NCBI GenBank assembly: GCA_021787845.1
Contig: JAJYLH010000021.1
Location: 1-64,000 of the forward strand
Direction: 5' to 3'
DNA length: 64,000 bases
Origin: Myxococcales bacterium
GTDB taxonomy: Bacteria > Myxococcota > Myxococcia > Myxococcales > JAJYLH01
Under the pieces are notes generated by a model. The model did no database searches. It had not been told where the DNA came from and saw nothing but the letters and a program-made list of their open reading frames with translations. The position numbers were made by a program, and so were the translations under genes. Positions 35,064-51,127 of the stretch are shown here, piece after piece (the stretch's first letter is position 1; the number at the start of each line of letters is the position of its first letter).

Positions 35064-35164
35064 CCCGCGGCGGTCCCGAAGGGCGGCAGCGTTCGTGGCG
35101 AGGCTTGCGAAGAACCGGCCGAACGGGGAAGCTTGAGGCGCGCTCCACCGTCGCCTTGGCCCGC

Positions 35165-36196
35165 ATGCGCCCGCTCCTCGTCACGATCGGTCTGCTCGTC
35201 GCCCTCTTCGTCGCCCTCCTCTTCGTTCGCCCGCGTCAGGCGGCGGCGCGCCACGGCGACGGGCCGCGGGTGGGCATCGTCTTCGACGTCGGCGGTCGGG
35301 GCGACAAGAGCTTCAACGACGGCGCCTGGCGCGGCGCCGAACGCGCGGCCCGAAAGCTCGGCGCGAACGTGCGCTTCATCGAGCCCGGCGACGGCAGCGA
35401 CCGCGCCGCGGGCCTGCGCATCTTCGCGTCGGAAGGCATGCAACTCGTCGTTGGCGTCGGCTTCATCTTCACCGACGATTTGATCGACGTGGCGCGCGAG
35501 TACCCGAAGGTCGATTTCGCCGGCATCGACTTCGCCCCCAAGGTGGACAAGAGCGGTCACCCCCTCCCGCCGCCGCCGAACCTGGTGGCGCTGAAGTTCC
35601 GCGAGCAGGAGGGCTCGTTCCTCGTGGGCGCCATCGCCGCCCTCGTCGGCGGCTCGAAGAAGCTCGGCTTCGTCGGCGGGATGGACGTGCCGCTCATCCA
35701 CAAGTTCGAGGCGGGCTATCGCGCGGGCGTCCGGGCGGTCTGTCCCGACTGCACCGTGCTCGCGCAGTACGCGGGCGTGACGCCGGAAGCGTTTCGCAAC
35801 CCCGAGCGCGGCAAGGAGCTGGCGCTGAGCCAATACCAGTCGGGCGTGAACGTCATCTTCCACGCCTCCGGCTCGACGGGCTTGGGCGTCTTCGAGGCCG
35901 CCCGGGCGATGGACAAGCTCGCCATCGGCGTCGACGCCGACCAGTACGGCGAGGCGCCGGGGCACGTGCTCACCTCGATGGTCAAACGGGTCGACGTCGC
36001 GGTCTTCGACGTGATTCGCGAGGTGAAGGAGGGGAAGTTCCACGGCGGCATCGAGTCCTTGGGGCTCAAGGAAGGCGGCGTCGACTACGTCTACGACCGC
36101 GAGAACGCGAGGCTGATTCCGCCAGCGGTGCGCGCCCGGGTCGAAGCGCTGCGGCAGGGCATCATCGCTGGCCGCATCCAGGTGCCCGACCAATGA
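35165..36196 (+). CDS. BMP-family ABC substrate-binding protein
   Basis: A 343-aa periplasmic binding protein of the BMP/PnrA (nucleoside) type. The N-terminal anchor is hydrophobic (LLVTIGLLVALFVALLFV) without a lipobox Cys, so it is an anchored or cleaved protein. The family core is RVGIVFDVGGRGDKSFNDGA, VVGVGFIFTDDL, NLVALKFREQEGSFL, LGFVGGMD and NVIFHASGSTGLG, all close to purine-nucleoside binding lipoproteins. Its stop overlaps the ATPase start by four bases (ATGA). It is the first gene of a four-gene importer. Confidence 0.92.
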   Translation: MRPLLVTIGLLVALFVALLFVRPRQAAARHGDGPRVGIVFDVGGRGDKSFNDGAWRGAERAARKLGANVRFIEPGDGSDRAAGLRIFASEGMQLVVGVGFIFTDDLIDVAREYPKVDFAGIDFAPKVDKSGHPLPPPPNLVALKFREQEGSFLVGAIAALVGGSKKLGFVGGMDVPLIHKFEAGYRAGVRAVCPDCTVLAQYAGVTPEAFRNPERGKELALSQYQSGVNVIFHASGSTGLGVFEAARAMDKLAIGVDADQYGEAPGHVLTSMVKRVDVAVFDVIREVKEGKFHGGIESLGLKEGGVDYVYDRENARLIPPAVRARVEALRQGIIAGRIQVPDQ

Positions 36197-37728
36197 ACGC
36201 GCGTTCGAGCCTCGCGGTCCGGATGGCCAGGGTCGACAAGGCCTTCGGACCGGTCCTGGCGACCAAGAGCGCTTCCCTGGAGGTGCAGCTCGGGGAGATC
36301 CACGCGCTGGTCGGCGAGAACGGCGCCGGCAAGTCGACCTTGATGCGGATTCTGGGCGGCCTCATCGCGCCGGACGCCGGCCGGGTGGAGGTCTTTGGCC
36401 GGGAAGTCACGGGTTGGACGACGCGCGCGGCGATTCAGGCGGGCGTGGGCGTGGTCCACCAGCACTTCATGCTGGTGCGGCCGCTGACCGTCGCCGAGAA
36501 CGTGGTGCTGGGTCAGGAGCCGAAACGGTTCGGACTCTTCGACAAGGCTGCCGCCCGGCGCGCGGTGGCGGAGCTGATCGAGAGGACCGGGCTGCGCGTT
36601 CCTGTCGACCGACCCGTTTCCGAGCTCTCGGTCGGCGGGGCGCAGCGGGTGGAAATCCTGAAGACGCTCTACCGCGGCGCGAAGCTGTTGGTGCTCGACG
36701 AGCCGACCGCGGTGCTCTCGCCGGTCGAGGTCCGGGAGCTGTGGGGCGTTCTGCGCAGCCTGCAAAGCGGCGGCGCTACCGTGGTCCTCATCACCCACAA
36801 GCTCGACGAGGTGATGGAGATCTCCTCTCGCGTGACGGTGATGCGCCGGGGCGAGACGATCGTGAGCATCGCCACCCGGGAGACCAGCCCCACGGAATTG
36901 GCGAGGGCGATGGTCGGACGCGCCGTCGCTCTTGCCTCTCAACAACGCCAAGCGGAACCGGTGAAGCAGAAAGGAAGCGCACTCGAGGTCCGCGACCTGC
37001 TTGTCGCTGGCGCCCGTCGGGCGCGGGCGGTCGACTCGGTCAGCTTGACGGTCGCGCCGGGCGAGATTCTCGGCGTCGCTGGCGTCGAGGGCAACGGCCA
37101 GACCGAGCTCGTCGAGGCGATCGCCGGCCTTCGCCCCGCAAGCTTCGGCAGCATCCGCCTCGGAGGCCGCGAGGTGGCGACCTTCAGCGTACGCGAGCGC
37201 ATCGCCGCGGGCTTCTCGCACATTCCCGAGGACCGGCAGCGCCGGGGGCTGGTGCTCGACTATTCGGTCGCCGAGAATCTCGTGCTCGGGCTCCAGGAGC
37301 GCTTCTGTAGGCACGGCATCCTCGATCGCCGCGCCATCGCCGAACGCGCCCGCCGGCTGGTCGCCGAGTTCGACATCCGTCCGGCCGACGCGCAGGCGCC
37401 CGCGCGAGCGCTCAGTGGCGGCAACCAGCAGAAGGTCGTCATCGCCCGGGAGATGGGCCGGGACTTTCAGGTTCTGCTCGCGGCGCAGCCGACCCGGGGC
37501 GTCGACGTCGGCGCCATCGAGTTCATCCACGGCCGCCTGCGCGAGGCGCGGGCCGCCGGCAAGACCATCCTCCTCGTCTCGGCCGACCTGAACGAAGTGC
37601 TCGCGCTGTCCGACCGCATCGCGGTGATGTACGGCGGTCGCCTCGTTGCCTTGCTCCCCCGCGCGGAGGCGACGGTGGAGATTCTCGGCGCGCAAATGAC
37701 CGGCGCCGGCCGGAAAGAGGCGGCTTGA
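36193..37728 (+). CDS. ABC transporter ATPase (nucleoside, duplicated)
   Basis: A 511-aa ATPase with two ABC domains, of the RbsA/YufO type. Domain 1: Walker A GENGAGKST, signature ELSVGGAQRVEIL, Walker B LLVLDEPTAVLSP. Domain 2 has a degenerate Walker A (GVEGNGQTEL), signature LSGGNQQKVVIAR and QPTRGVDVGAIEF, as is usual in this family. It powers uptake of the ligand held by the BMP protein, with which it overlaps; it then overlaps the first permease (TGATG). Confidence 0.95.
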   Translation: MNARSSLAVRMARVDKAFGPVLATKSASLEVQLGEIHALVGENGAGKSTLMRILGGLIAPDAGRVEVFGREVTGWTTRAAIQAGVGVVHQHFMLVRPLTVAENVVLGQEPKRFGLFDKAAARRAVAELIERTGLRVPVDRPVSELSVGGAQRVEILKTLYRGAKLLVLDEPTAVLSPVEVRELWGVLRSLQSGGATVVLITHKLDEVMEISSRVTVMRRGETIVSIATRETSPTELARAMVGRAVALASQQRQAEPVKQKGSALEVRDLLVAGARRARAVDSVSLTVAPGEILGVAGVEGNGQTELVEAIAGLRPASFGSIRLGGREVATFSVRERIAAGFSHIPEDRQRRGLVLDYSVAENLVLGLQERFCRHGILDRRAIAERARRLVAEFDIRPADAQAPARALSGGNQQKVVIAREMGRDFQVLLAAQPTRGVDVGAIEFIHGRLREARAAGKTILLVSADLNEVLALSDRIAVMYGGRLVALLPRAEATVEILGAQMTGAGRKEAA

Positions 37729-38909
37729 TGCTCCGCTTCACCGGTCTCGCCAACCAGGACCGCCGCCGTCGGCTGGAAGAGGCGCTGCTGCCTACCCTGG
37801 TGGCGCTTCTCGTCGCGCTGGTCTGCGGCGAGCTGTTGATCCTCGCGCACGGCGAGTCGCCGGCCGAGGTCTACCGTGAGCTCCTGCAGGGCACCTGGGG
37901 CAACGCCTATGGCCTCGGGCAGGTGCTCTTCAAGGCGACGACGCTGACCTTCACCGGTCTTGCCGTGGGGCTGGGCTTACGGGCAGGGCTCTTCAACATC
38001 GGCGCCGAGTCGCAGCTCGCGGCGGGCGGTTTCGCCGCCGCTCTCACCGGGCTGGCGCTCCCCTCGGGGACCCCCGCGCTGGCGGCGATTCCGGTCTGCC
38101 TTCTCGCGGCGATACTCGGCGGCGGCTTGGTGGGAGCGGTGCCGGGGGTCTTGAAGGCGAAGTTCGGCGCGCACGAGGTGATCGTCACCATCATGCTGAA
38201 CTTCGTGGTCCTGGCCGCCTTGAATTGGGTGGTGGTCGCGCACCTGCACGTTCCGGAGTCGGTCCACACCCCGGAAATCCACGCCGGCGGGCTGGCCAAG
38301 CTGTCGCGGATCTTCCCCTCCTTCCACGGCTCCGCCGCGAACCTGTCGCTGGTCGTCGCGCTCTTGACGGTGATCGGCACCGCTTTCGTCCTCTTCCGCA
38401 CCCGCTTCGGTTTCGACCTGCGCGCGGTCGGCCTCCAGCCCGACGCGGCGGAGTACGGTGGCGTTCGGCCGAGCCGGATCTACCTGCTCGCGCTGACATT
38501 CTCCGGCGCGCTCGCGGGCTTGGGGGGCATCAACTCGGTCCTCGGCTACCACGGCTACTACGAGGACGGGTTCGCCGGCGGCGCGGGGTTCCTCGGCATC
38601 GCGGTCGCGCTCGTCGGGCGCAACGACCCCTTCGGCATCGCGCTCGCGGCGCTGTTCTTCGCGACACTCTCCCAGGGCGGCCTCGCCATCCACGCGCTGG
38701 TGCCGCGGCAGATGATGGAGGTCCTGCAAGCGATCGTGATCATCGCGGTCGCCGCCTCGGTCCCCGAGGTGCGACGCATCCTGCGCCTCGCCAGGCGACC
38801 GCGACCGACCATCGACCGATCCTCGACCGCGTCGACCGCCGCCGATGGGCCAGCAGGACCGCAAGAGCCTGGCGTTAACGTATCGGCAGGCCACGGGGGC
38901 TCTCGATGA
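37728..38909 (+). CDS. ABC transporter permease, nucleoside type (1)
   Basis: A 393-aa inner-membrane permease with about eight to ten hydrophobic helices (for example LLPTLVALLVALVCGELLIL and a GLGLRAGLFNIGAESQLAAG core). The N-terminal and C-terminal parts match the larger YufP/NupP-like subunit of BMP-type importers. The ATG at 37728 overlaps the ATPase stop (TGATG); a TTG at 37725 is next to it. Its own stop overlaps the second permease by four bases. Confidence 0.92.
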   Translation: MLRFTGLANQDRRRRLEEALLPTLVALLVALVCGELLILAHGESPAEVYRELLQGTWGNAYGLGQVLFKATTLTFTGLAVGLGLRAGLFNIGAESQLAAGGFAAALTGLALPSGTPALAAIPVCLLAAILGGGLVGAVPGVLKAKFGAHEVIVTIMLNFVVLAALNWVVVAHLHVPESVHTPEIHAGGLAKLSRIFPSFHGSAANLSLVVALLTVIGTAFVLFRTRFGFDLRAVGLQPDAAEYGGVRPSRIYLLALTFSGALAGLGGINSVLGYHGYYEDGFAGGAGFLGIAVALVGRNDPFGIALAALFFATLSQGGLAIHALVPRQMMEVLQAIVIIAVAASVPEVRRILRLARRPRPTIDRSSTASTAADGPAGPQEPGVNVSAGHGGSR

Positions 38910-39778
38910 GCGTCGTCGACCTTGTCGCGCAGGTCGTCCGCATCGCGACGCCCTACCTCCTGGCGGCGGCCGGCGGCGTCATCGCCGAGCGCTCGGGGGT
39001 CATCAGCCTCACCCTCGAAGGGTTCATGCTCGGCGGCGCCTTCACCGCCGCGCTGGGCACCTATTTCTTCCACAGCCTCGCCCTGGGGGTCCTCTGCGGC
39101 ATTGCGGGAGGGCTGCTGCTCGCTGGGATTCACGCCGGCGCCTCCATCCGCCTGCGCGCCGACCAGGTGGTGAACGGCATCGCCATCAACCTCCTCGCGG
39201 TCGGCGCGACCCGTTACTTCCTTCGTATCGCCTTCGACAGCGCCTCCAATTCGCCACGCATCGCCGGCTTCAACGAGTCGCCGGGCCTCGTCGGCCTCGT
39301 CGAGAACCCGCTGGTCTGGGCGGGCCTCCTCGCCCTGCCGGTCGCCTGGCTCATGCTCAACCGGACCGCTTTCGGACTGCGTGTGCGGGCGAGCGGCGAG
39401 CACCCGGAAGCGGCGAGGAGCGTCGGCGTTCCCGTAGGGCGGGTGCAGCTCTGGGCGGTGCTCTGGTCTGGAGCCCTCGCGGGCCTGGCGGGCGTCTACC
39501 TGGCGCTCGACCAGCACCAGTTCTCGGACCAGATGACCGCGAGCCGGGGCTACATCGCGCTCGCGGCGATCATCTTCGGCGCCTGGGAGCCCTTGCGCGC
39601 CGGGCTCGCCTGCCTCCTCTTCGCTGCGGCCGAGACGCTGGAAATCCACCTGCAGGGCACGTCTCTCGTTCCGCCGCAAGTGGTGGAGATGATTCCCTAC
39701 GCGCTGACGATCATCGCGCTCGCGGGCGTCGTGCGGCGTGTCGCTCCGCCGGCGGCGCTCGGCCGCGCCCAGGAATGA
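38906..39778 (+). CDS. ABC transporter permease, nucleoside type (2)
   Basis: A 290-aa second permease of the YufQ/NupQ type, with about eight hydrophobic helices and the family segment ERSGVISLTLEGFMLGGAF and a GEHPEAARSVGVPVGRVQ loop. It completes the importer and is last in the operon; the next gene is convergent, 30 bases on. Substrate is probably nucleosides, by family; purine versus other cannot be told. Confidence 0.92.
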   Translation: MSVVDLVAQVVRIATPYLLAAAGGVIAERSGVISLTLEGFMLGGAFTAALGTYFFHSLALGVLCGIAGGLLLAGIHAGASIRLRADQVVNGIAINLLAVGATRYFLRIAFDSASNSPRIAGFNESPGLVGLVENPLVWAGLLALPVAWLMLNRTAFGLRVRASGEHPEAARSVGVPVGRVQLWAVLWSGALAGLAGVYLALDQHQFSDQMTASRGYIALAAIIFGAWEPLRAGLACLLFAAAETLEIHLQGTSLVPPQVVEMIPYALTIIALAGVVRRVAPPAALGRAQE

Positions 39779-39808: not shown

Positions 39809-41407
39809 TCAGTATCGCCCGACCAGCGTGGCGCGGCCGCCCCACTCGTTCGCGTCAGCGAGAACGCGCACGTATGGGTCTTGAGGAGAGCGACGTTCCA
39901 GCGCGGTGATATTTGCGTCCCGCTGAAAGTGAACCTCGACGTAGCCCGCGAGGTGCCCTCCGACGATGTCCACGCGAACGAACGCCTTGGCACCCAGGAG
40001 CGGTGCTGCTGTGCAGGGTCCGGTGGCGCACGGAGGCAGGATCTCGTACTCGCCTGGGTTGTCGATGACGACGGTCGGCGCTTGCGGCAGCGCCTCCTGC
40101 GGAATGTTCCCTGCCAGGGCTTTCGGAAACGAGCCTGTGAACGTACTGGGCGCTTCAAGCCCCGCGGCGATTCCGGGGGTCAGTCGCAGGCGCGGCAGGT
40201 GGAAGTCGCTTCGCACCGTGAAGAAGGTTTCGGGCGTCGTGTCATCCGCGGGCGAAATCGCCTGGAACGGGTCGAAACCTGGCACGTTCAGGAGGATGAA
40301 GGCGAGGCTGCGCATCATCGCGGTCGCCTCGAAGCGCCAGGCACCGTCTTGCATCCGCAGCTCCAGGTCGCTGGCCCAGGCATTCTGGGCGGTCGACTTC
40401 GTCGGATGATCGGGATCCTGCAAGGTCGTCGCGACCCACGTCGCCTCGCCGGAGACCACGTACGACAGCCCCGCGCGATCGGTGCGCTTGCGAAAGGCGT
40501 GATCAGGCGAGGTCGGATCTCGCGTCGCGAGCGAGTAGTCGATCTCGCGCGGAACGCCCGCCCCGTGAGCGTACGAAAGCTGGACGGAAGCGCCGTAGCT
40601 CCTCACCGGCTGACCGAGCACGCCTTCCTTCGGATTGACGCCGCGATCGAACCAACCGCCGTTCGCCTCCAGCCGCAGCGACGCAGGGAGATCGACACCG
40701 GCGCCGCCCAGCACGGCACCGACGTAATGGGTCTTGTTGTCGACGACATCGAGCAACGACGTCGCTTTCGCACCGACAAACGCCTGGACGCGACCTTTTC
40801 TGAGCGCGAGCCGTGCTCCGGGAACGGCGCCCGAAGTGAGCGCAAAATCGGCGAGGTCAGGGTTGGTAGCGTGAAGGAATATCGCACTACCGCCCCACGA
40901 GACGCCCCACCGGTAGCCGAGTCGAAGACGGTCGGACGAGTAGGGATAGAGCGCGAGCGAAATCCCTTCACCCGTCCTCCAGCCGTGCGGGCGCCATCGT
41001 AGACGCAAGAAGCTGGAATCGTCCGCCGGGAGCCATGCAAGCTCGCTCGTGGCAGTGCCTTCCAACGGCACGAGCGACGGATTGAACCAGCCCAGCGCCA
41101 GCCCGATGTCTCCTGAAAGCGACGACGTCCCTAGACGCGGATGGAAGATGAACGTGGTCTCGCTCAGCGCATCCGACCGCGTGTCGAAGTTGTCGTAGAA
41201 CTGGTAGTAGTCGTCGTAGGTTTGGTCGGGCGTGCAGAAGCCGAATCCGCCGCCACCGACCGAATCCGCGCAGACGCTTGCCGGAAATCGAAGTTGAACG
41301 AGCCCGGCCGCGCGGACGGTGGTCGGGAGCGCTATCGCCAGGCAGCAGAAGACGACGAACGAGCGAAGGTTCGGCCCAAGGCTGATGACGCGACGATGCG
41401 GGCGCAT
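39809..41407 (-). CDS. Putative outer-membrane barrel protein
   Basis: A 532-aa exported protein. The ATG at 41407 is followed by a signal with FVVFCCLAIALPTTVRAAG. The rest has many short alternating beta strands ending in aromatic residues and a C-terminal ...VGRY, as expected of an outer-membrane barrel. There are few Cys and a paired-Trp segment (LRLRWRPHGWRTGEGISLA). No family is recognised. Base use seems more mixed at third positions than in neighbours, but this was not measured. It is divergent from the FadR-type regulator and may share its control region. Confidence 0.65.
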   Translation of the reverse strand: MRPHRRVISLGPNLRSFVVFCCLAIALPTTVRAAGLVQLRFPASVCADSVGGGGFGFCTPDQTYDDYYQFYDNFDTRSDALSETTFIFHPRLGTSSLSGDIGLALGWFNPSLVPLEGTATSELAWLPADDSSFLRLRWRPHGWRTGEGISLALYPYSSDRLRLGYRWGVSWGGSAIFLHATNPDLADFALTSGAVPGARLALRKGRVQAFVGAKATSLLDVVDNKTHYVGAVLGGAGVDLPASLRLEANGGWFDRGVNPKEGVLGQPVRSYGASVQLSYAHGAGVPREIDYSLATRDPTSPDHAFRKRTDRAGLSYVVSGEATWVATTLQDPDHPTKSTAQNAWASDLELRMQDGAWRFEATAMMRSLAFILLNVPGFDPFQAISPADDTTPETFFTVRSDFHLPRLRLTPGIAAGLEAPSTFTGSFPKALAGNIPQEALPQAPTVVIDNPGEYEILPPCATGPCTAAPLLGAKAFVRVDIVGGHLAGYVEVHFQRDANITALERRSPQDPYVRVLADANEWGGRATLVGRY

Positions 41408-41499
41408 GCCGAGCACCCAAGCACCCGATCCGTTAGCCGTCAAGCATTTGATCCCCGTCGCCTGGAAGGGCACTTGCGTTTCGCCGAGGGCCTTGCTAC

Positions 41500-41510
41500 T
41501 GGTCGGACCA
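41500..41510. promoter_or_regulatory. FadR-type operator, perfect palindrome
   Basis: TGGTCGGACCA is a perfect 11-base palindrome 34 bases before the start codon of the GntR/FadR-family gene. It fits the consensus of FadR-subfamily operators (TGGT-N3-ACCA). It sits where it would block the promoter of the operon that begins at 41545, so self-control is likely. It could also touch the divergent barrel gene. Confidence 0.7.
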
Positions 41511-41544
41511 CCGGACCGGAGGGGGTCCGGAGGAGGCGCGCGAG

Positions 41545-42243
41545 GTGTTCGAGCGAATCGAGCGCAAAGGGGTGGCCGACCAGATCGCCTCGTCGCTGCG
41601 CGAAGCGATCGTCGGCGGGCGGCTGCGCGCGGGCGACGCCTTGCCCAGCGAGCGGGAGTTGGCGACGCGCTACGAGGTGAACCGGTCGAGCGTGCGCGAA
41701 GCGCTGAGGCGGCTGGAGGCGTGGGGCCTCGTCGAAATCCGCCAGGGCGGCGCGACGCGGGTGCGCGACGTGCTCGTCTCCGCCGGCCTCCAGGTGCTGC
41801 CGTACCTCATCGAGCCGCGGGGCCGGGTCAATCGAGCCATCGTCCGCGACCTGCTCGAGCTGCGCGCGATGTTCCTCGCCTGGTGTGCCCAGAGCGCCGC
41901 CGAGCGCGCGAACGCCACGACGGTCGCGCGGCTCGACCGCCTGGCGAAGGCGCTGTCGGAGGCTAGAAGCCCTTCCGAGCTCCAGCAGCTCGACTACGAC
42001 TTCTTCGAAACGCTGGTGAAGTCGAGCGGCAACCGGGTGCTGCTCTTGATGGCGAACGTCGTGCGCGAGGTCTACATGGCCCACCGCGAGCGCTTCGTCG
42101 CGATGTACGCCGACGGCGCCTTCGACGCCGAGCACCATCGAGAAGCGGTCGCGGCCATCCGCGCCCGGAACCCGACGGCGGCCGCGGCGGCGATGAGGGC
42201 TCACGCGCTGGCCGGAATCGCTGCCGTCGAGGAGATTCGCTGA
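41545..42243 (+). CDS. GntR-family regulator, FadR subfamily
   Basis: A 232-aa transcription factor. The GTG at 41545 follows a GGAGGAGG box. N-terminal winged helix-turn-helix: GRLRAGDALPSERELATRYEVNRSSVREALRRLEAWGLVEI (shortened here). The C-terminal all-helical FCD-like ligand domain has RAIVRDLLELRAMF and FFETLVKSSGNRVLLLM, with the HH pair in the C-terminal part (AEHHREAVAAI) as possible metal ligands. A matching operator lies 34 bases upstream. It is the first gene of a four-gene operon; the ligand is probably an acid or acyl product of that pathway. Confidence 0.92.
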   Translation: MFERIERKGVADQIASSLREAIVGGRLRAGDALPSERELATRYEVNRSSVREALRRLEAWGLVEIRQGGATRVRDVLVSAGLQVLPYLIEPRGRVNRAIVRDLLELRAMFLAWCAQSAAERANATTVARLDRLAKALSEARSPSELQQLDYDFFETLVKSSGNRVLLLMANVVREVYMAHRERFVAMYADGAFDAEHHREAVAAIRARNPTAAAAAMRAHALAGIAAVEEIR

Positions 42244-43274
42244 TGCTTGCCTCGCTGTTCGCGTCGCGCCCGCCGAACGCCTGCCGCTTCGTCGACACCC
42301 TTCCCGGCCACGTCGAGAGCTACTTCCTCCGCGCGAACGATCCGCGGCGGCCGCGGGCGATTTGGCTCAAGGCGACGATTCTGCAGCCGCGTTCGGGTCC
42401 GCCGGTCGCGGAGTCCTGGGGCATCTTTTTCGACGGCGATGAGAACCGCACGCTGGCGCACCGGGAGACGAGACCGCTCTCGTCCAGCACGTTTCCCGAT
42501 CCGCGCGAGGCGAAGATCGCGGTCGCCGGCTGTACGTTTTCGCTCTCCCCGGCCGGCAGCTCCGCCGGTGAGCTCGAAAGTCCGCGCGGGAAGCTCGCCT
42601 GGAACCTCTCTTGGACCCGGGAGCCCTCCCGGATGGGCGAACCGCTTTCGCTCTACCCGCATCCGGCGCTGGTCGAAGGCCCGTTCCCGAAGACGAAGAT
42701 CCTGACGCCGTTGCCGGCGCTCTTCTTCTCCGGGACCATCGCCGCGGCCGGCGAAACCATCGCGGTCGACCGCTGGCCGGGGATGCAAGGCCACAACTGG
42801 GGCGCCGAGCACCCGTGGGAGTACGCCTGGGGCCAGTGCCTCTTCCCGAATTCGTCCGGCGGCCTCGAGGCGATGGTCGAAGGCTTCAGCGGCCGGCTGC
42901 GCCTCGCCGGAAGGACCACGCCAGCGCTCTCGGCCCTCGTCGTGCGCCGCCACGACCGGACGTTTCGCTTCGACCGGCTCCTCGACCTCTGGCGACAGAC
43001 CGCGCGGATCACCGACCGGACGTGGACGCTCGCGATGCGCGGCGGCGACGGCGAGGTCGAGCTGTCGATGGACGCCGGCGCGCAGCCCATCGCCTGCCTC
43101 GGCTACCGCAACCCCGACGGGCGGCTGTCGTACTGCCTGAACACCAAGCTCGCCCGCGTTCACCTGAAGCTCAAACCCAAGTCAGCAGCGCCGCTGGAGC
43201 TCGAGAGCGCTCACGGTGGTGCTCTCGAATTCCTCCGCCACGCGCCCGATCCGAAGATCGCCGAAGTCGTCTGA
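42243..43274 (+). CDS. Tocopherol-cyclase/CrtC-like protein
   Basis: A 343-aa protein translationally linked to the regulator (start and stop overlap). It has no signal peptide. Its motif GMQGHNWGAEHPWEYAWGQC (residues ~178-197) recalls the GHNWG core of tocopherol cyclase and hydroxyneurosporene-synthase (CrtC)-like lipocalin-type proteins. Those act on isoprenoid lipids. The rest is beta-rich. It is followed after 17 bases by a small gene and then a GMC oxidoreductase, so a terpenoid- or sterol-like substrate is a reasonable guess. No direct proof of enzyme activity is visible. Confidence 0.75.
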   Translation: MLASLFASRPPNACRFVDTLPGHVESYFLRANDPRRPRAIWLKATILQPRSGPPVAESWGIFFDGDENRTLAHRETRPLSSSTFPDPREAKIAVAGCTFSLSPAGSSAGELESPRGKLAWNLSWTREPSRMGEPLSLYPHPALVEGPFPKTKILTPLPALFFSGTIAAAGETIAVDRWPGMQGHNWGAEHPWEYAWGQCLFPNSSGGLEAMVEGFSGRLRLAGRTTPALSALVVRRHDRTFRFDRLLDLWRQTARITDRTWTLAMRGGDGEVELSMDAGAQPIACLGYRNPDGRLSYCLNTKLARVHLKLKPKSAAPLELESAHGGALEFLRHAPDPKIAEVV

Positions 43275-43291
43275 CGACACAGGAGAAAGCC

Positions 43292-43765
43292 ATGAAAACG
43301 TCGTTCGTGGAAACCATGCGCGGCTCGCTCACGACGCAAGACGGGCTGAAGCATCCCCTCGATTTCGAAATCAAGGCCGAGGCCCCTTCCCTCTTGCGCT
43401 TCCTGCGCGACGGCACCTTGCAGCTCTCCGGCGTCCTCCACGCCTCGCCGTGGGCGTCGGAGGTCCCGGCGGCGGGGACGATGGAAATCGCCCTCGCGCA
43501 CGGGCGCATCGGCTACCGCCTGCGGTTCGGGACGTTCCGGCTCGAAGGCGACAAGCGGGTGCGCCCGGCCGCCCTCCTCCCCTCGATGACCACGCTTCCG
43601 GTCACGCTGAGCGATAGCGCTGGCACCCAGCTCGCGACCGGCGAGGTCCGCTTCGACCTGCGCGACCTCCCGGGCTTCCTGCGTTCCTTCCTTCCGTTCC
43701 GGCGCCTGGCCCAACAGCGCCTCGACGAGAAGCGGCGGAACGTCGAGCAACGTCCGGCCGCCTGA
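43292..43765 (+). CDS. Small GMC-associated protein
   Basis: A 157-aa protein with a strong AGGAG site. It reads like a beta-rich domain: METMRGSLT..., then LHASPWASEVPAAGTMEIAL, IGYRLRFGTFRLEGDK, and a DLRDLPGFLRSFLPF C-terminus. I recall a similar domain fused to or next to GMC/cholesterol-oxidase-like enzymes (a GTL..YRL.F....G..K....TTL pattern). If so, this is a split partner of the next gene. It overlaps the first possible start of the oxidoreductase. Confidence 0.65.
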   Translation: MKTSFVETMRGSLTTQDGLKHPLDFEIKAEAPSLLRFLRDGTLQLSGVLHASPWASEVPAAGTMEIALAHGRIGYRLRFGTFRLEGDKRVRPAALLPSMTTLPVTLSDSAGTQLATGEVRFDLRDLPGFLRSFLPFRRLAQQRLDEKRRNVEQRPAA

Positions 43766-43788
43766 TGCGCGGCTCTTCGGAGGTGGCG

Positions 43789-45729
43789 ATGTCGACGGCT
43801 GGTTCGATGCCGGAGGGCTCCCTTTCCCCGGCCGAGCGGGCGCTGCTGCTCGAAATCGCGCGCACGGCGCTCCCCGGTGGGCGCCTGCTCGGAGCGGCGG
43901 ACGCGGCGACGGTCGAGCGCGCGGAGGCCTTCGTCGACTCGCTCGGCCAGAGCCCGCGCCGAGCGTACCGGGGTCTCTTGTGGTCCATCGAGTCGAGCGC
44001 GCTCGCGCGGCACCGCCGCCGCTTCGGACAGCTCCCCTTCGGGCGCCGGATCGACCTGCTGTCCCAATGGAAGAACAACGAGGTGCTGCGGGTGCCGCTG
44101 CGGGCGCTGCTCGCGCCGCTGAAGTTCGGGTACTTCGGCGACCCTGGCGCCTACGCCGCCCTCGGTTGCCGCTACGCGCCCGACCCGGTCCAGCCGGAAA
44201 AGAAACGCTGGGAATCCCAGGTCCTCGACGGCGCGACGCTCGAGGCTGACGAAACGCTGGAGTGCGACGCGGTGGTGGTCGGGACCGGTGCCGGAGGGGC
44301 ACCGGTCGCGAAGGAGCTCGCCGAGGCCGGTCACGCGGTGCTGCTCGTCGAGGAGGGCACCTACGTTCGCCGGGACGGGTTCTCCGGCCGCCCCTTGGAG
44401 ATGATGGCCCGCCTCTGGCGCGACTATGGCGCCACCATCACCGTCGGAAACACCGCGATTCCGGTGCCCGTCGGCCGGTCGGTGGGCGGGACCACCACCA
44501 TCAACGCCGGCACCTCGCTTCGGGCGCCAGAAGCGCTCCTGCGCTCCTGGGTGGCGGAGCACGGCCTCGAGGACCTCTCCCCCGAGAAGCTCGACCCGTT
44601 CTACGCGCGGGTCGAGGCGGTGCTCGGGGTGGCGGAAGCGACGCCGAAGGCCTACGGCGGTCCTGGAAGGCTCATCGCCCGCGGCTGCGACGCGCTCGGC
44701 TACTCGCACCGGCCGCTCCGGCGCAACGCGCCCGACTGCGACGGCCAGGGGCTGTGTACCTTCGGCTGCCCGACCGACGCCAAGCGTTCGACCAACGTCT
44801 CCTACGTGCCGCTGGCGCTGGAACGGTCGGCGCAGCTTCTGACCCACGTCAAGGTGGAGAAGGTTCTCGTCGAAAACGGTCGCGCGGTCGGCGTCGTCGG
44901 GAGGGCCCAGCGTCCGGAGGGGCGGGAGGTCACGGTCACCGTCCGGGCGAAGGTGGTGGTCCTCGCCTGCGGCGCGCTGCACACGCCGGCGCTGCTCCTC
45001 AAGAACGGCCTCGCGAACGGGTCCGGCGAAGTCGGGAAGAACCTTTCCATCCACCCGGCGGGCGCGGCGATGGGCCTCTTCGACGAGCCGGTGGAGAGCT
45101 GGCGTGCGGCGCCGCAGGGCTACTCGATCGACCACTTCGCGAAGAGCGACGGCATCCTCTTCGAGGGGGGGTCGACACCGCTGGAGGTCACCTCGGCGTC
45201 GCTGGGCGGCTTCGGTCCCGAACACCAGGAGCTGATGGAGCGCTACAACAACCAGCTCAACTTCGGCTTCCTGGTGAAAGACGTCTCCCGCGGGCGCGTG
45301 CGCGTCAGGCGCGACGGCCGGCCGTGGATGAGCTACTGGCTCGGCGAGCACGACCGGGTTCGGCTCCAGAAAGGGATGGCGATTCTCGCGCGGGTCTTCT
45401 TCGCCGGCGGCGCGCGCGAGGTCTGGCCGTGGGTGTTCGGCTGGGAGCGGCTGCGCGACCCGAGCGAGGTCGACCGGCTGGAGCGGGCGCACATTCCGGC
45501 GCGCCACTTCGACCTGACCGCGTACCATCCGCTCGGCACCGCCCGGCTCGGCGTCGACCCGAAGAGATCGGTCGTCGGTCCTACCCACGAAGCGCACGAC
45601 CTGCCGAACTTGTACGTCTGTGACGGCTCGTCGGTCCCGAGCTCGCTCGGCGTCAACCCGCAGGTCACCATCATGGCGATGGCCTTGCGCGCGAGCGGCT
45701 TCATCGCCGAGCGCATCGAGCGGCTCTAG
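43789..45729 (+). CDS. GMC-family FAD oxidoreductase
   Basis: A 646-aa FAD alcohol oxidoreductase; the ATG at 43789 has GGAGG six bases upstream. The first ~95 residues resemble the small gluconate-2-dehydrogenase subunit-3 type, here fused. The FAD-binding motif is DAVVVGTGAGGAPVAKEL (~160-180) and GRSVGGTTTINAGT follows. A Cys cluster C317, C323, C327 (DCDGQGLCTFGCPTDA) could bind a metal or make disulfides. The active-site His is in YHPLGTAR and the Asn in NPQVTIMAMA. It ends the operon. It should oxidise a lipid-like alcohol, perhaps a sterol or terpenoid. Confidence 0.9.
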   Translation: MSTAGSMPEGSLSPAERALLLEIARTALPGGRLLGAADAATVERAEAFVDSLGQSPRRAYRGLLWSIESSALARHRRRFGQLPFGRRIDLLSQWKNNEVLRVPLRALLAPLKFGYFGDPGAYAALGCRYAPDPVQPEKKRWESQVLDGATLEADETLECDAVVVGTGAGGAPVAKELAEAGHAVLLVEEGTYVRRDGFSGRPLEMMARLWRDYGATITVGNTAIPVPVGRSVGGTTTINAGTSLRAPEALLRSWVAEHGLEDLSPEKLDPFYARVEAVLGVAEATPKAYGGPGRLIARGCDALGYSHRPLRRNAPDCDGQGLCTFGCPTDAKRSTNVSYVPLALERSAQLLTHVKVEKVLVENGRAVGVVGRAQRPEGREVTVTVRAKVVVLACGALHTPALLLKNGLANGSGEVGKNLSIHPAGAAMGLFDEPVESWRAAPQGYSIDHFAKSDGILFEGGSTPLEVTSASLGGFGPEHQELMERYNNQLNFGFLVKDVSRGRVRVRRDGRPWMSYWLGEHDRVRLQKGMAILARVFFAGGAREVWPWVFGWERLRDPSEVDRLERAHIPARHFDLTAYHPLGTARLGVDPKRSVVGPTHEAHDLPNLYVCDGSSVPSSLGVNPQVTIMAMALRASGFIAERIERL

Positions 45730-46085: not shown

Positions 46086-46700
46086 ATGCGTACCCTCGAC
46101 GCCCGCATGGACCGCTCCTCCGAACCTGCGCCGCGCGTGGCCGAACGGCCGTTCGGCCCCGAATTCCGGGATTTCTACGAGCGCCACTTCGCCTTCGTCT
46201 ATCGGGTGGTGGCCCGCCTCGCCGGGCCCGAAGGCGACGTCGACGACCTGCTCCAGGAGATCTTCGCCATCGCCGGCCAGAAGCTTCCCGAATTCCAGGG
46301 CCGGGCGAAGGAGACGACCTGGCTCTACCGCATCGCCGCCAACGTGGTCAGCGCCGACCGGCGCAAACGCCGCCGACAGCACCTGTTGTCGATGCGCTGG
46401 CTCAAGCCGGCCGCGGGCGAGGAGGTCGTCGAAAGCCCGGACCGCGAGGTCGAACGGTCCGACGCCCACCGCCTGGTCCACGGCATCCTCGCCGAAATGA
46501 GCGAGAAGAAGCGGGCGGTGTTCATCCTCTTCGAGCTCGAAGGGATGCCCGGCCAGGACGTGGCGGAGGTCGTCGGGTGCCCCCTCGACACCATGTGGAC
46601 GCGCCTATTCCACGCCCGGCGGGAATTCAAGCGGATCCTGGCGGAGCGCGGAATCCGCTCGACGGCCGACCTGTCGGCCCTGCCGGGAGCGACCAGGTGA
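46086..46700 (+). CDS. ECF-family RNA polymerase sigma factor
   Basis: A 204-aa sigma-70 family factor. The ATG follows GAGGG by about eight bases. Sigma region 2: RDFYERHFAFVYRVVARLAG, DVDDLLQEIFAIA, then TTWLYRIAANVVSADRRKRR. Region 4: LAEMSEKKRAVFILFELEGM and an AEVVGCPLDTMWTRLFHARREF helix-turn-helix. Regions 1 and 3 are absent, as in ECF factors. The FecR-like gene overlaps its stop by four bases, so that protein is the likely partner or anti-sigma factor. Confidence 0.93.
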   Translation: MRTLDARMDRSSEPAPRVAERPFGPEFRDFYERHFAFVYRVVARLAGPEGDVDDLLQEIFAIAGQKLPEFQGRAKETTWLYRIAANVVSADRRKRRRQHLLSMRWLKPAAGEEVVESPDREVERSDAHRLVHGILAEMSEKKRAVFILFELEGMPGQDVAEVVGCPLDTMWTRLFHARREFKRILAERGIRSTADLSALPGATR

Positions 46701-48502
46701 ACGACCCCTCCTTCCAGCCGCGGCGTTGGCGCGAGAGCTTGGACCTCGCGCCGCTCGTGGAGGCCGAGAGCGCCCTTTCTCCGCCCGAGGGGCTTCAGGA
46801 GCGCATCTACCATGCGCTGGCGCTCCGGTTCTCCCCGATGGCCGAGGCGGCTTCCGACCCCGAGCTGCGCTCGCTCCTTTTGCGGGCCGCCCTCGAGCCG
46901 CCCGCCGGCCTCAAGGAGCGCGTCCTGCGCGAGGTGACCGAAGAGGCCCTCGCCCGCCTGGGGCTCGCCGAGCCCGCTCGCCTGGCCGCGGCGAGCGATC
47001 CGGCTGCCCTCCTGCTCTCGCGGGCGGCGACGCTGGACCCGCCCGCCGGACGCCGCGCCCGGGGGCTGCTCAGGCTCACCCCGGGTCCCCGCCGGCGCCG
47101 GCCGGCGTTCGTGCTCGCCCCCCTCGCCCTCGCCGCCGCTCTCACCGGGCTGGTCCTCTTCCTCTGGCCGAGAGCGCATCCACCCACCGGGACCTCCCTG
47201 GCGGTCGGCACGTTCGGCCCGGTCGCGGTCCTGCGGGCGGGCGCGCTCTTGGCTCCCCACGCGACGCTCGAGGTGGGCGACGCCCTCACCGCCTTGTCCA
47301 ACGATCCACAACGATTGCGTCTGGCCGGGGTCGGCGACTTCTTCTTCGGCGGTCAGGGCGGCCGACTCGCGCTCGAGAAGAACGACGCCGGAGGGGTCCT
47401 GCTCGCCCTCTCGGGCGGACGCATCGCCGTCCACGCCGTCCATCGGCCCCCGACCGCGCCGCTCGTCGTCGAGGCGGGAGACACCCGGGTGCGAATCGTG
47501 GGAACGATCTTCAGCGTCGACGCGACCGGGCCGAACGTTCGCGTCGCGGTGCGCGAAGGGCTCGTGCGGGTGACCCGCGGGACGCAGGTGACCTTCGTCG
47601 GCTCCGGGCAGGTCTGGTCCGCTTCCGCGGGGGTGAGCCGCTCCCGCCCGCCGTCCTGGGCGAATACCCTGATGCAAACCCTTGCGGGTCGAGCGGTGCC
47701 GCGTCCGGCTCCGTCCGCCCCGGGCACGGCTCGCGTCGCGGCCTCCGTGCCGCCAGCGACGAGCCTCGCCAAGGCGCCGCCAGCGCCGACGTCGCGCCCG
47801 CGGCCACGGTCGCGTCCCTCGCCGGTGACCACGGCACCGCTGCCGCCACTCGCTTCCGCAGCCGGACGCCCGGCGGCCGCGCAACCCGCCGTCGACCTGG
47901 TCGCGCTGGCGCGGGGCTTGATGGGCAAGTCCAAGGTCGAGCTGCGACGCATCGGTCGCGATGCCGCGCGGCAGGGCGATCTGACGACCGAGGCGGGCGC
48001 GCTCTACGCGCTGTCCTTCGCCGCCGACGCGACCGGGGCGGACCGCGCGGCGACCTTGGCGCAGCTCGCCCACCTGCTCGACGAGCAGCTCGCCGATCCA
48101 GCCGAGGCCCTCCGCATCTGGCGCTACCTCGCGGACAAGAGCCCAGCCGACCGGCCAGAGGCGGTGGCGAGCGAGTTCGAGGTCGACGTCGAGCTCGGGC
48201 GCCAGGCCGAGTTGGCCCGGGCCTTCGCCGAGTGCGTGCGCGCCTGCTCGCCGGACGACCTCGCGGTGGCGCGGTGGACGAGAGCGCTGGCGCTGGCCGA
48301 TTCGCCGCGCTACGCGGCACTTTTGAAAGCGGCCAAGCGCATCGCTCCCACGGCCCAGCACGCGGCGGTCCTGACCTACGAGCAGCGCGCGCGGCTGCTC
48401 GCGGTCACCCAACCCGAGCGCGCCCGCCGTCTCGCGCGTTTCGCGGCCAAGCTTGCGCCCGACGACCTCGATGCCGACGTGCGCGCGCTGCTGAACGAGT
48501 GA
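46697..48502 (+). CDS. FecR-domain membrane protein with TPR tail
   Basis: A 601-aa protein starting at a GTG that overlaps the sigma gene stop (GTGA). Residues ~1-130 are cytoplasmic and hold repeated helical modules (LSPPEGLQERIYHAL; LEPPAGLKERVLREV). One transmembrane helix follows (FVLAPLALAAALTGLVLFLW). The periplasmic part has a FecR domain (~155-310; GDTRVRIVGTIFSVDATG, VAVREGLVRVTRG), a long Pro/Ala linker, and a TPR-like tail (~400-601). It probably senses a periplasmic signal and holds the sigma factor. The N-terminal repeats replace a standard zinc-type anti-sigma domain. Confidence 0.85.
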   Translation: MNDPSFQPRRWRESLDLAPLVEAESALSPPEGLQERIYHALALRFSPMAEAASDPELRSLLLRAALEPPAGLKERVLREVTEEALARLGLAEPARLAAASDPAALLLSRAATLDPPAGRRARGLLRLTPGPRRRRPAFVLAPLALAAALTGLVLFLWPRAHPPTGTSLAVGTFGPVAVLRAGALLAPHATLEVGDALTALSNDPQRLRLAGVGDFFFGGQGGRLALEKNDAGGVLLALSGGRIAVHAVHRPPTAPLVVEAGDTRVRIVGTIFSVDATGPNVRVAVREGLVRVTRGTQVTFVGSGQVWSASAGVSRSRPPSWANTLMQTLAGRAVPRPAPSAPGTARVAASVPPATSLAKAPPAPTSRPRPRSRPSPVTTAPLPPLASAAGRPAAAQPAVDLVALARGLMGKSKVELRRIGRDAARQGDLTTEAGALYALSFAADATGADRAATLAQLAHLLDEQLADPAEALRIWRYLADKSPADRPEAVASEFEVDVELGRQAELARAFAECVRACSPDDLAVARWTRALALADSPRYAALLKAAKRIAPTAQHAAVLTYEQRARLLAVTQPERARRLARFAAKLAPDDLDADVRALLNE

Positions 48503-48587
48503 GGCTTGGCGCCAGGGCGCCTGTGCGGGTCGGGCTCACGCCGATCATCTCGATTCTTGCCGGGCGCGGCCGCGGTCTGTTACGACC

Positions 48588-49151
48588 GTGAGCGTGACCC
48601 GCCGGAGCCTCGTTTGTTGCGCGGCGTTCTTGGCGCTGGGCGGCTGCCGGCTCCTGGAACCGCCGGCGACCGGGAAGGCTCCCGCTGACCTCACCCTCCG
48701 CGGCGTGGTGCTCGACCAGTACCAGCACGGCATCTTGACCGCGAAGGCGCGGATGAGCGTCGTGGGTTACGAGCGCGCCGACGACCGGGCTCACGCCGAA
48801 AGGCTGCGGCTGCACCCCTTGTCGAACGGCACCAGCGAGGGGACGCTGGCGAGCCTGCGGGCGGACGCGCGCCTCGGGAAGCGGGTGGTCGAGCTCTCCG
48901 GTGGCACCCGTTGGGTGTCGACCGGCGGCGACGAGATGTCGGCCCCGAGGTGCCACATCGACCTCAGCACGAGGCGGTTTCGCGGGGACGACCCGGTGAG
49001 CTTGAGCGGTCCCGGCTACCAGGCGAAAGGAGATCGGTTCCACGGCCGTTACGGGCCGGGCGGGCGCCTCGTCCTCGAAGGGCACGCCCAGGCGGCGACC
49101 GAGGGCGCCGTCGAGGCGGGCGCGCAAGCGGCCACCCGGGGCGAGCGATGA
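48588..49151 (+). CDS. lptC: LptC-like LPS-export lipoprotein
   Basis: A 187-aa lipoprotein. GTG start; signal ends in FLALGGC (Cys20). The rest is a beta-jellyroll of the LptC/OstA type (LTLRGVVLDQYQHGIL, ADARLGKRVVELSGG, YQAKGDRFHGRYGPGG). LptC normally has a transmembrane anchor; a lipid anchor here is a variant. It helps pass LPS from the inner-membrane complex to LptA. The stop overlaps the lptA start (ATGA). First gene of lptC-lptA-lptB-rpoN. Confidence 0.8.
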   Translation: MSVTRRSLVCCAAFLALGGCRLLEPPATGKAPADLTLRGVVLDQYQHGILTAKARMSVVGYERADDRAHAERLRLHPLSNGTSEGTLASLRADARLGKRVVELSGGTRWVSTGGDEMSAPRCHIDLSTRRFRGDDPVSLSGPGYQAKGDRFHGRYGPGGRLVLEGHAQAATEGAVEAGAQAATRGER

Positions 49152-50047
49152 TCGCGGCGGTCGTGGCGATGGCGCTGGCGGCCGGCTCGGCGGGTGCGCA
49201 AGTGCCCGGCGTTGGGCCGGCGCCGATTCCTGGTGGGCAGGATGGCACCCATTCCACGGGAGCGCCGCCGCCCAGTCGCCTGGTGCTCACGAGCGACGAG
49301 CTGTCGGTCACTCCTGGAACGCATGTCGCGGTGGCGACCGGCGCCGTCCACGCCCGTTCGTCGGAGATGGACGTGACCTGCGACCGCGGCCGGGCGACCT
49401 ACGAATCGAACCCGTCTGGAGCGACCCGGCAAGTCGATGAGCTGGACGCGAGCGGTCACGTCCACCTGATTCGGACGCTCGACGGGCTCGTGGCCGACGC
49501 CGCCTCGGCGACCTGGTGGCGCGCGACCAACGAGATGGTGCTGGAGGGCGACGCGGTCGTCCATCGCGGGAACGACGTGCTCCGGGGGTCGAGGATCACG
49601 GTCTGGCTCGCGAACGACGGGTACGACGCCGACCATCCGCGGGTGCTCCTCGCGCGCTCGAGCGAGCCCGCGCGCGTGTCGGCGACCCGTCTTGCGGTCC
49701 GCGACGGCGGCCGGTCGGCGCGCTTCACGGGAGCGGTGCATCTCTCCCAGGGCGAGACGCGGGCGACGAGCGACCGGATGGACGCGGCGATCGATGGGTC
49801 GGGACTCGACCAGAAAGCGCTCTCGCGCCTGGTGCTCCTCGGGCACGCGCGCATCGTGAAAGGCGCGATGATCGCCACCGCGCGGCGGGCGACCTACGAC
49901 GCGACCAACGGCGACCTCGTCCTGACGGGCGCGCCGCGGGTGGACTCGAAGGGCGACGTCATCGAAGGCGAGCGCATCACGGTCAACGGCCGGACCGGAC
50001 AGGCTCGGGCCGAACGGGCGACGGCGCACGTGAAGGCGGACCGATGA
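49148..50047 (+). CDS. lptA: LptA-like periplasmic LPS-transport protein
   Basis: A 299-aa protein with a signal peptide ([17 protein letters not shown]). It has two OstA-type repeats of the LptA fold: [20 protein letters not shown] through [11 protein letters not shown], and [20 protein letters not shown]. It bridges the periplasm between LptC and the outer membrane. It is longer than E. coli LptA (185 aa) because of a Pro-rich front and a second repeat. Start and stop both overlap the neighbours by four bases, so the three lpt genes are one translational unit. Confidence 0.85.
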
Positions 50048-50778
50048 GCGTCCTTCGTCTGCGCGCGCAAGGGCTGTCCAAGTCGTACCGCCGCCGGCGG
50101 GTGGTGGACGAGGTCTCCTTTCACGTCGAGCCGGGCGAGGTGGTGGGGCTGCTCGGCCCGAACGGCGCCGGGAAGACGACGAGCTTTCGCATCGTGGCCG
50201 GGCTCGTGACGCCGGATGCGGGCCGGGTGTTCCTCGGCGACGACGAGCTGTCGGGGCTGCCGCTGCATCTGCGGGCGCGGCGCGGGCTCGGGTACCTGCC
50301 GCAGGAGCCGTCGGTCTTTCGCAAGCTCACGGTCCTCGACAACTTCGTCGCGGCCCTCGAGGCGCTGCCGGGCGTGAGCGGTGCCGAGAGGCGCAAGCGG
50401 GCGGAGGCGCTCGTCGCGGAGTTCCGGCTGGAAGCCTTGCGTGACTCCCTCGGCGAACAGCTCTCGGGGGGGGAGCGGCGGCGGGTGGAGATTGCGCGGT
50501 CGCTGATTCCGGGGCCGAAGTTCATCCTTTTCGACGAGCCGTTCGCGGGGGTCGACCCGATCGCGGTCGGCGACCTGCAGAAACAGATTGCCGGTCTGCG
50601 CCATCGGGGTCTGGGCGTCTTGATCACCGACCACTCCGCGCGAGAGACGCTCGGCATCTGCGACCGGGCGTACCTGCTGTCGAACGGGCGGATTCTCGAG
50701 GAGGGCACCCCGACCGAGCTCGCCGCGAGCGGTCGAGCGAGAGCGGTCTACCTGGGCGAACACTTCTCGCTCGGCTAG
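50044..50778 (+). CDS. lptB: LPS export ABC transporter ATPase LptB
   Basis: A 244-aa cytoplasmic ATPase that powers LPS extraction. Walker [11 protein letters not shown]-loop [13 protein letters not shown], signature [15 protein letters not shown], Walker [14 protein letters not shown] and H-loop ITDHSARET are all normal for LptB. It follows lptA with a four-base overlap. The rpoN gene starts 350 bases later, the standard order. Confidence 0.97.
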
Positions 50779-51127
50779 CGCGACCCCCCGTCGGTCGATC
50801 GCTGCCCGGTCGGTCGAAAATCTGCAAAAGCAAATCGCGGACCTCGCCCGAAGCTCAGGGCGTGGGTCGGTCTGCCAACCACTTGACGATTCAGAAAAGT
50901 CAAGCGCGCAGCTCCGCGTCGCCCAGAAACCCGCTCAAGAGCCTGTTTCGGCTCTCCTACCGATGGTTTGGGAAGGATGCGCGGCGGAGGACGTTGCAAG
51001 ATTTCGGCCATGGACGGAGACTCGGGGTGCCGCGGGGGCGGCGGGAGGCCAGGAGCCGGCCCGCCGTCTCGCAAGGGCGGGTCGCGTGGGGACGAGCGGG
51101 TCCCCCCAGTCCGGCGGCGGAGGTGCG
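50779..51127 (+). other. Intergenic region before rpoN
   Basis: A 349-base stretch between lptB and rpoN. Open frames cross it without supporting features. It may hold a separate rpoN promoter or a leader. I saw no clear hairpin terminator and no -24/-12 sigma-54 box. Confidence 0.4.

Follow-up and report, generated by a model that had tools for sequence, protein, structure and literature searches.

A conserved operon of Myxococcota joins a FadR-type regulator, two barrel-fold proteins and a GMC oxidoreductase and may serve the oxidation of lipid alcohols

We analyzed a 64,000-nucleotide (nt) stretch, hereafter the window, of contig JAJYLH010000021.1 from the Myxococcales bacterium assembly GCA_021787845.1 (6.24 Mb, 153 contigs, 98% complete), and looked into the four-gene operon located at positions 41545 to 45729. 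Its four open reading frames (ORFs) lie head to tail on the + strand and partly overlap: a TGATG overlap occurs both between fadR and the gene of a calycin-fold protein and between the genes of a small beta-barrel protein and a GMC oxidoreductase, and 17 nt separate the calycin-fold gene from the beta gene. An alternative ATG start of the GMC gene, at 43789, is possible. An initial annotation, made from the letters alone, had described one tight and co-regulated operon, and these overlaps, the short gap and a conserved operator bear it out. The features and the evidence used to assign them are as follows.

41545 to 42243, + strand: fadR, encoding a FadR-family GntR regulator of 232 amino acids (aa), GTG start (Pfam, best PDB match, family alignment)
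42243 to 43274, + strand: calycin-fold protein of the AttH/CrtC/tocopherol-cyclase superfamily, 343 aa (alignments, AlphaFold, Foldseek)
43292 to 43765, + strand: small beta-barrel protein without a Pfam family, 157 aa (AlphaFold, fusions elsewhere)
43765 to 45729, + strand: GMC flavoprotein oxidoreductase, 654 aa (Pfam, alignment, tree)
41500 to 41510, no strand: FadR-type operator TGGTC-G-GACCA, upstream of fadR and between it and the divergent gene (sequence, conservation)
39809 to 41473, - strand: divergent beta-rich, probably outer-membrane protein, 554-aa ORF (position relative to the operator)

The calycin-fold protein had been labeled tocopherol-cyclase/CrtC-like, a label that held for the fold and failed for the sequence. 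Its AlphaFold model (predicted local distance difference test [pLDDT] score of 94.4) best matched, in a Foldseek search of the PDB, AttH NE1406, kievitone hydratase, Fsa2, and 25-phosphosteroid lyase (E values of 1e-9 to 1e-6; matched entries include 2ich, 7a0q, 7e5t, and 9fzn). The two-domain lipocalin-like fold was recovered at template-modeling (TM) scores of ∼0.5 to 0.58 against 2ich, 7a0q, and 7e5t (E, 1e-9 to 1e-8), with only 10 to 13% identity to these structural matches. By sequence, profile searches against solved structures found none of the superfamily members, neither the protein nor its family members matched Pfam CrtC (PF07143), and the match to Tocopherol_cycl (PF14249) was below threshold (E=0.019; 14.5 bits versus a gathering cut-off of 26.6), the best E value in the family being 0.0025.

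The initial annotation had also suggested hydration of the CrtC type. Carotenoid hydratase requires His239, Trp241, Tyr266, and Asp268 (PMC4717167), and we confirmed the corresponding H-x-W-24-Y-x-D spacing in CrtC from Roseobacter litoralis (H119, W121, Y146, and D148). This His-x-Trp...Tyr-x-Asp tetrad was found in none of the 46 members of the calycin-fold family, and an hhalign comparison of the family with real CrtC gave E=0.23 over 27 columns, which is no homology. AttH-type PF07143 proteins of relatives were also tried as stand-ins for CrtC and were of no use for comparison. With the catalytic residues absent and no sequence homology, we rejected an identity as CrtC hydratase. The family has an invariant set of its own, composed of His184, Asn185, Trp186, His190, Glu213, Cys298, Asn300, and Lys302, with a His184-Asn-Trp186-Gly motif. 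The family is a distinct branch of the AttH/CrtC calycin fold and not a carotenoid hydratase.

The third gene had been read as that of a small beta-rich protein, in agreement with its AlphaFold model, a beta barrel with helices (pLDDT, 91). None of the 14 members of this family matched Pfam, and the fold search returned only weak lipocalin-like PDB matches (best E, 0.0045; TM, ∼0.4). Searches of solved structures by sequence gave nothing meaningful for either barrel protein.

The GMC oxidoreductase matched GMC_oxred_N (6e-51) and GMC_oxred_C (1e-22) and has as invariants the glycines G173, G175, and G178 of the flavin adenine dinucleotide motif (GxGxxG), and the catalytic residues His588 and Asn631. 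The fused N-terminal domain noted at the outset is present and resembles Gluconate_2-dh3, a weak match in 7 of 13 members (best, 3.6e-5); the N terminus may also be similar to that of the fatty alcohol oxidases of plants and yeasts. A tree of 71 GMC proteins put the enzymes of the core operon in one group (support, 99/96), adjoined by a group made up mostly of proteins with a C-terminal beta fusion (100/99); proteins with an N-terminal beta fusion clustered with gammaproteobacterial enzymes (85/95), and short paralogues were located far off.

We then analyzed the regulator and its site. The fadR product matched GntR (2e-24), FCD (2e-17), and FadR_C (3e-9), all above cut-off, and its best solved relative was a PDB chain named Rv0494/Fatty acid metabolism regulator (E=1e-18). 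Its scores with the NCBIfam FadR models were 77 to 80 bits, against cut-offs of 189 to 249; for the Escherichia coli FadR equivalog TIGR02812, it reached 77 bits of the curated 249. The F-H of the FCD metal-ligand motif reads D-F-F in all 11 aligned orthologues, with Phe in the place of the metal-binding His, in agreement with the LDYNIF segment of an aligned FadR-type chain. This replacement makes a metal-carboxylate effector appear unlikely.

A perfect TGGTCGGACCA is located at 41500 to 41510, between fadR and the divergent gene, so that an operator of the TGGTNNNACCA type, as first proposed, is present at the regulator's own promoter region; a simple sigma-70 promoter scan found no promoter. 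The palindrome was perfect in 18 of 22 homologous fadR upstream regions and had one mismatch in 3 more, and a second copy (at least 9/10) was found in the same upstream stretch at each of the 12 loci where the aldehyde dehydrogenase (ALDH) gene is divergent. Its retention at homologous fadR promoters and its doubling at the divergent-ALDH loci are strong evidence that it serves autoregulation and shared control. Over the 6.24 Mb of the genome, the operator pattern occurred four times and a reversed control pattern three times, which is no commoner than chance. Two of the other three perfect sites, which we examined as candidates for a wider regulon, were in or next to unrelated genes, and we therefore claim no regulon.

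The calycin-fold protein was present in 76 of 195 genomes of the phylum. Proteins with at least 46% identity to it were found in 14 other genomes, from about seven Myxococcota families, and there the order of the fadR, calycin-fold, beta, and GMC genes was kept wherever the contig reaches, the exception being one genome (G056) without the FadR gene. A first scan of a collection of named genomes with the single calycin-fold sequence gave no match; an alignment query succeeded and yielded 80 loci, which were read with profiles of each gene. The near relatives in this collection were nearly all Myxococcota or deltaproteobacterial metagenome-assembled genomes (MAGs), and in most of the Myxococcota loci this operon recurred, in many cases accompanied by a divergent ALDH gene. 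Four Nocardia loci and loci L086 and L102 contained a FadR-type regulator, an ALDH, the calycin-fold protein, and a single protein in which the beta domain is fused to the N terminus of GMC, a fusion also found in several other Myxococcota MAGs. In L033, L126, L130, and L141, the beta domain was fused to the GMC C terminus instead, and a calycin-fold gene was located nearby, usually in divergent orientation. Alcanivoracaceae, HdN1, and Fluviicoccus had the GMC gene, a remote beta homologue (22 to 44 bits), and the calycin-fold gene, which were arranged in the order GMC, beta, calycin-fold in Alcanivoracaceae and HdN1. The three genes have thus long been associated, with repeated rearrangements and fusions, a history that speaks for physical cooperation between their products.

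Other observations were made at these loci. In L086, a NAD_binding_4 (fatty acyl-CoA reductase-type) gene lies between fadR and the ALDH gene (L086:1089-2183). In L044 to L047, from the same order as the genome of the window, a remote paralogue of the calycin-fold gene is preceded by a conserved gene of ∼186 aa and not by the operon genes. The Nocardia operon of L105 is followed by genes of 85 and 407 aa (L105:13417-14903), neither of which matched Pfam; genes of the same sizes follow in L107 and L108.

The ALDH of the relatives, encoded divergently or on the same strand, matched Pfam Aldedh (4e-86), and its best solved relatives were a steroid ALDH, a class 3 ALDH, and a fatty aldehyde dehydrogenase. 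The genome analyzed here encodes, on another contig, a copy with 58% identity.

We propose, with moderate confidence, that the operon is repressed by its FadR-family regulator and oxidizes hydrophobic primary alcohols, long-chain and possibly methyl-branched or isoprenoid ones. The neighbors point this way, since a fatty-aldehyde-type ALDH, hydrocarbon-degrading hosts, and FadR-type control together suggest a route from long-chain or branched alcohols to acids; the lipid theme of the initial annotation is upheld. What we observed directly is the gene set with its conservation and fusions, the operator, the protein folds, and the lack of CrtC catalytic residues; the substrate, the inducer, the physical interaction, and the barrel roles in the following scheme are inferred. 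The GMC flavoenzyme would convert the alcohol into the aldehyde, and the ALDH, which most relatives encode next to the operon and which here lies on another contig, would convert the aldehyde into the acid, which would enter acyl-CoA metabolism. The repressor would occupy TGGTCNGACCA, and a fatty acid or a long-chain acyl-CoA would probably release it. Both barrel proteins may bind the lipid and present it to GMC, with the small beta protein as a detachable GMC domain, and the calycin-fold protein may add an acid/base step via its invariant His and Glu residues.

Several points weigh against this proposal. The evidence on the substrate is indirect, and sequence searches with the GMC protein matched choline and cholesterol oxidases about equally. 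No ALDH gene is located near the operon in the window, the stretch examined at the unlinked ALDH (L225) contains no perfect operator, and some relatives contain the calycin-fold gene without GMC. The link to alkane degradation discussed below also presumes that ABO_1174 of Alcanivorax borkumensis is the GMC encoded beside the calycin-fold gene in the Alcanivorax operon. A bolder form of the proposal, which we put forward only tentatively, would make the calycin-fold protein a new type of enzyme, with its catalytic set among His184, His190, Glu213, Asn300, and Lys302, acting on the lipid of GMC in an obligate three-part complex that Myxococcota would share with Nocardia and with oil-degrading Gammaproteobacteria and that would have a mycobacterial counterpart.

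It is less probable that the operon belongs to a pathway for sterols or isoprenoids, with the calycin-fold protein hydrating, dehydrating, or cyclizing a hydrocarbon chain and GMC oxidizing the product. The fold is that of hydratases, lyases, and cyclases with isoprenoid or steroid substrates, such as kievitone hydratase and 25-phosphosteroid lyase, the invariant polar cluster (His184, Asn185, His190, Glu213, Asn300, and Lys302) suggests chemistry, and both the steroid ALDH, as best solved ALDH relative, and the cholesterol oxidase among the GMC matches would fit. The missing tetrad, the empty hhalign comparison, and the lack of sequence matches to solved superfamily members nevertheless speak against it, a tertiary alcohol of the CrtC type could not be oxidized by a GMC enzyme, and no steroid-ring or carotenoid genes were found among the annotated neighbors examined. 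The sterol or carotenoid substrate put forward in the initial annotation thus received no specific support.

Less probable again is a biosynthetic operon making a modified lipid (an aldehyde, a ketone, or a hydroxy lipid) for use in membranes, spores, or pigments, with FadR coupling it to fatty acid supply. The NAD_binding_4 gene inside the L086 operon and the biosynthetic Diels-Alderases among the calycin-fold relatives favor such a role, yet degradation is a better fit to the ALDH and the hydrocarbon-degrading hosts, and no synthase or transferase gene is consistently linked. A chance grouping of genes from unrelated pathways, for which only the weak individual annotations speak, is refuted by gene fusions, the shared operator, and a gene order conserved across families and phyla, the order having been kept in many relatives when the conservation check called for initially was made.

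The divergent 39809 to 41473 gene shares the operator region with fadR and fills the slot held by ALDH in relatives. Its product has a signal-peptide-like start and matched nothing in Pfam and NCBIfam searches, and its membership in the system is uncertain. Further upstream (34571 to 39778, + strand), genes for a Bmp/PnrA-type substrate-binding protein, an ATP-binding cassette (ABC) ATPase, and two BPD_transp_2 permeases form a nucleoside-type ABC transporter operon. Downstream (46086 to 52630, + strand) are, in order, genes for a sigma-70-type (extracytoplasmic function-like) factor, a large ORF, LptC, LptA/LptD_N, an LptB-like ABC ATPase, and RpoN (sigma-54).

The operon combines known types of parts with two uncharacterized barrel families, and full-text literature searches found no described pathway with this exact set, as initially stated. 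The proposal would explain in a consistent way what a gene set present in three phyla, as yet without a name, does; the fusions and the common regulation would connect both barrel families with the oxidation of lipid alcohols. How Alcanivorax degrades branched alkanes, and what the uncharacterized Rv0492c-Rv0493c pair beside the fatty-acid-responsive regulator Rv0494 does, are points on which it makes predictions, and thanks to the operator and the fusions a few purified proteins would suffice to test the system.

Among known systems, E. coli FadR resembles the regulator in its GntR and FadR_C similarity, its TGGTC-N-GACCA-type site, and an LDYxxF segment that replaces the FCD metal motif D-x-x-F-H; it differs in that the window regulator is not an equivalog and that the acyl-CoA-binding C terminus was unaligned. 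AttH NE1406 (2ich), kievitone hydratase, Fsa2/Phm7, and 25-phosphosteroid lyase have the two-domain calycin fold in common with our protein, which shows no detectable sequence homology to them and has its own invariant residues.

The LaoABC-LaoR system of Pseudomonas aeruginosa (PA0364-PA0367) clusters a GMC, an ALDH, and a regulator for long-chain alcohols (PMC7318663, PMC6107682). Compared by composition, it is like the operon of the relatives in combining a GMC alcohol dehydrogenase, an ALDH, and a dedicated regulator; the window operon itself lacks the adjacent ALDH and has a regulator of another family. LaoR is of the TetR type, LaoB is an inner-membrane protein, and no calycin-fold or small beta protein is described for Lao. 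In A. borkumensis, ABO_1174 is a GMC that matches the long-chain-alcohol oxidase FAO1 (FunFam) and is expressed only on pristane (PMC6850023). The Alcanivoracaceae loci, those of other Alcanivorax included, have the GMC, beta, and calycin-fold genes in one operon, with one GMC of ∼650 aa in the genome tested, and differ from the window in gene order and in that no FadR-type gene was detected beside them.

The FadR-type regulator Rv0494 of Mycobacterium tuberculosis is described as fatty-acid responsive (PMC4301838) and adjoins the operon rv0492c-rv0493c (PMC10100808, PMC4301838). Three Nocardia-family genomes contain a divergent FadR-type gene, the calycin-fold gene, a gene of ∼110 aa, and GMC; this mycobacterial-type middle gene was tested as a homologue of the beta protein and was unlike it. 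By synteny, Rv0493c would be the calycin-fold member. The Nocardia-family layout fits, at remote similarity, the one implied by Rv0494 beside rv0492c-rv0493c, and Rv0494-Rv0493c-Rv0492c is apparently among the nearest described systems.

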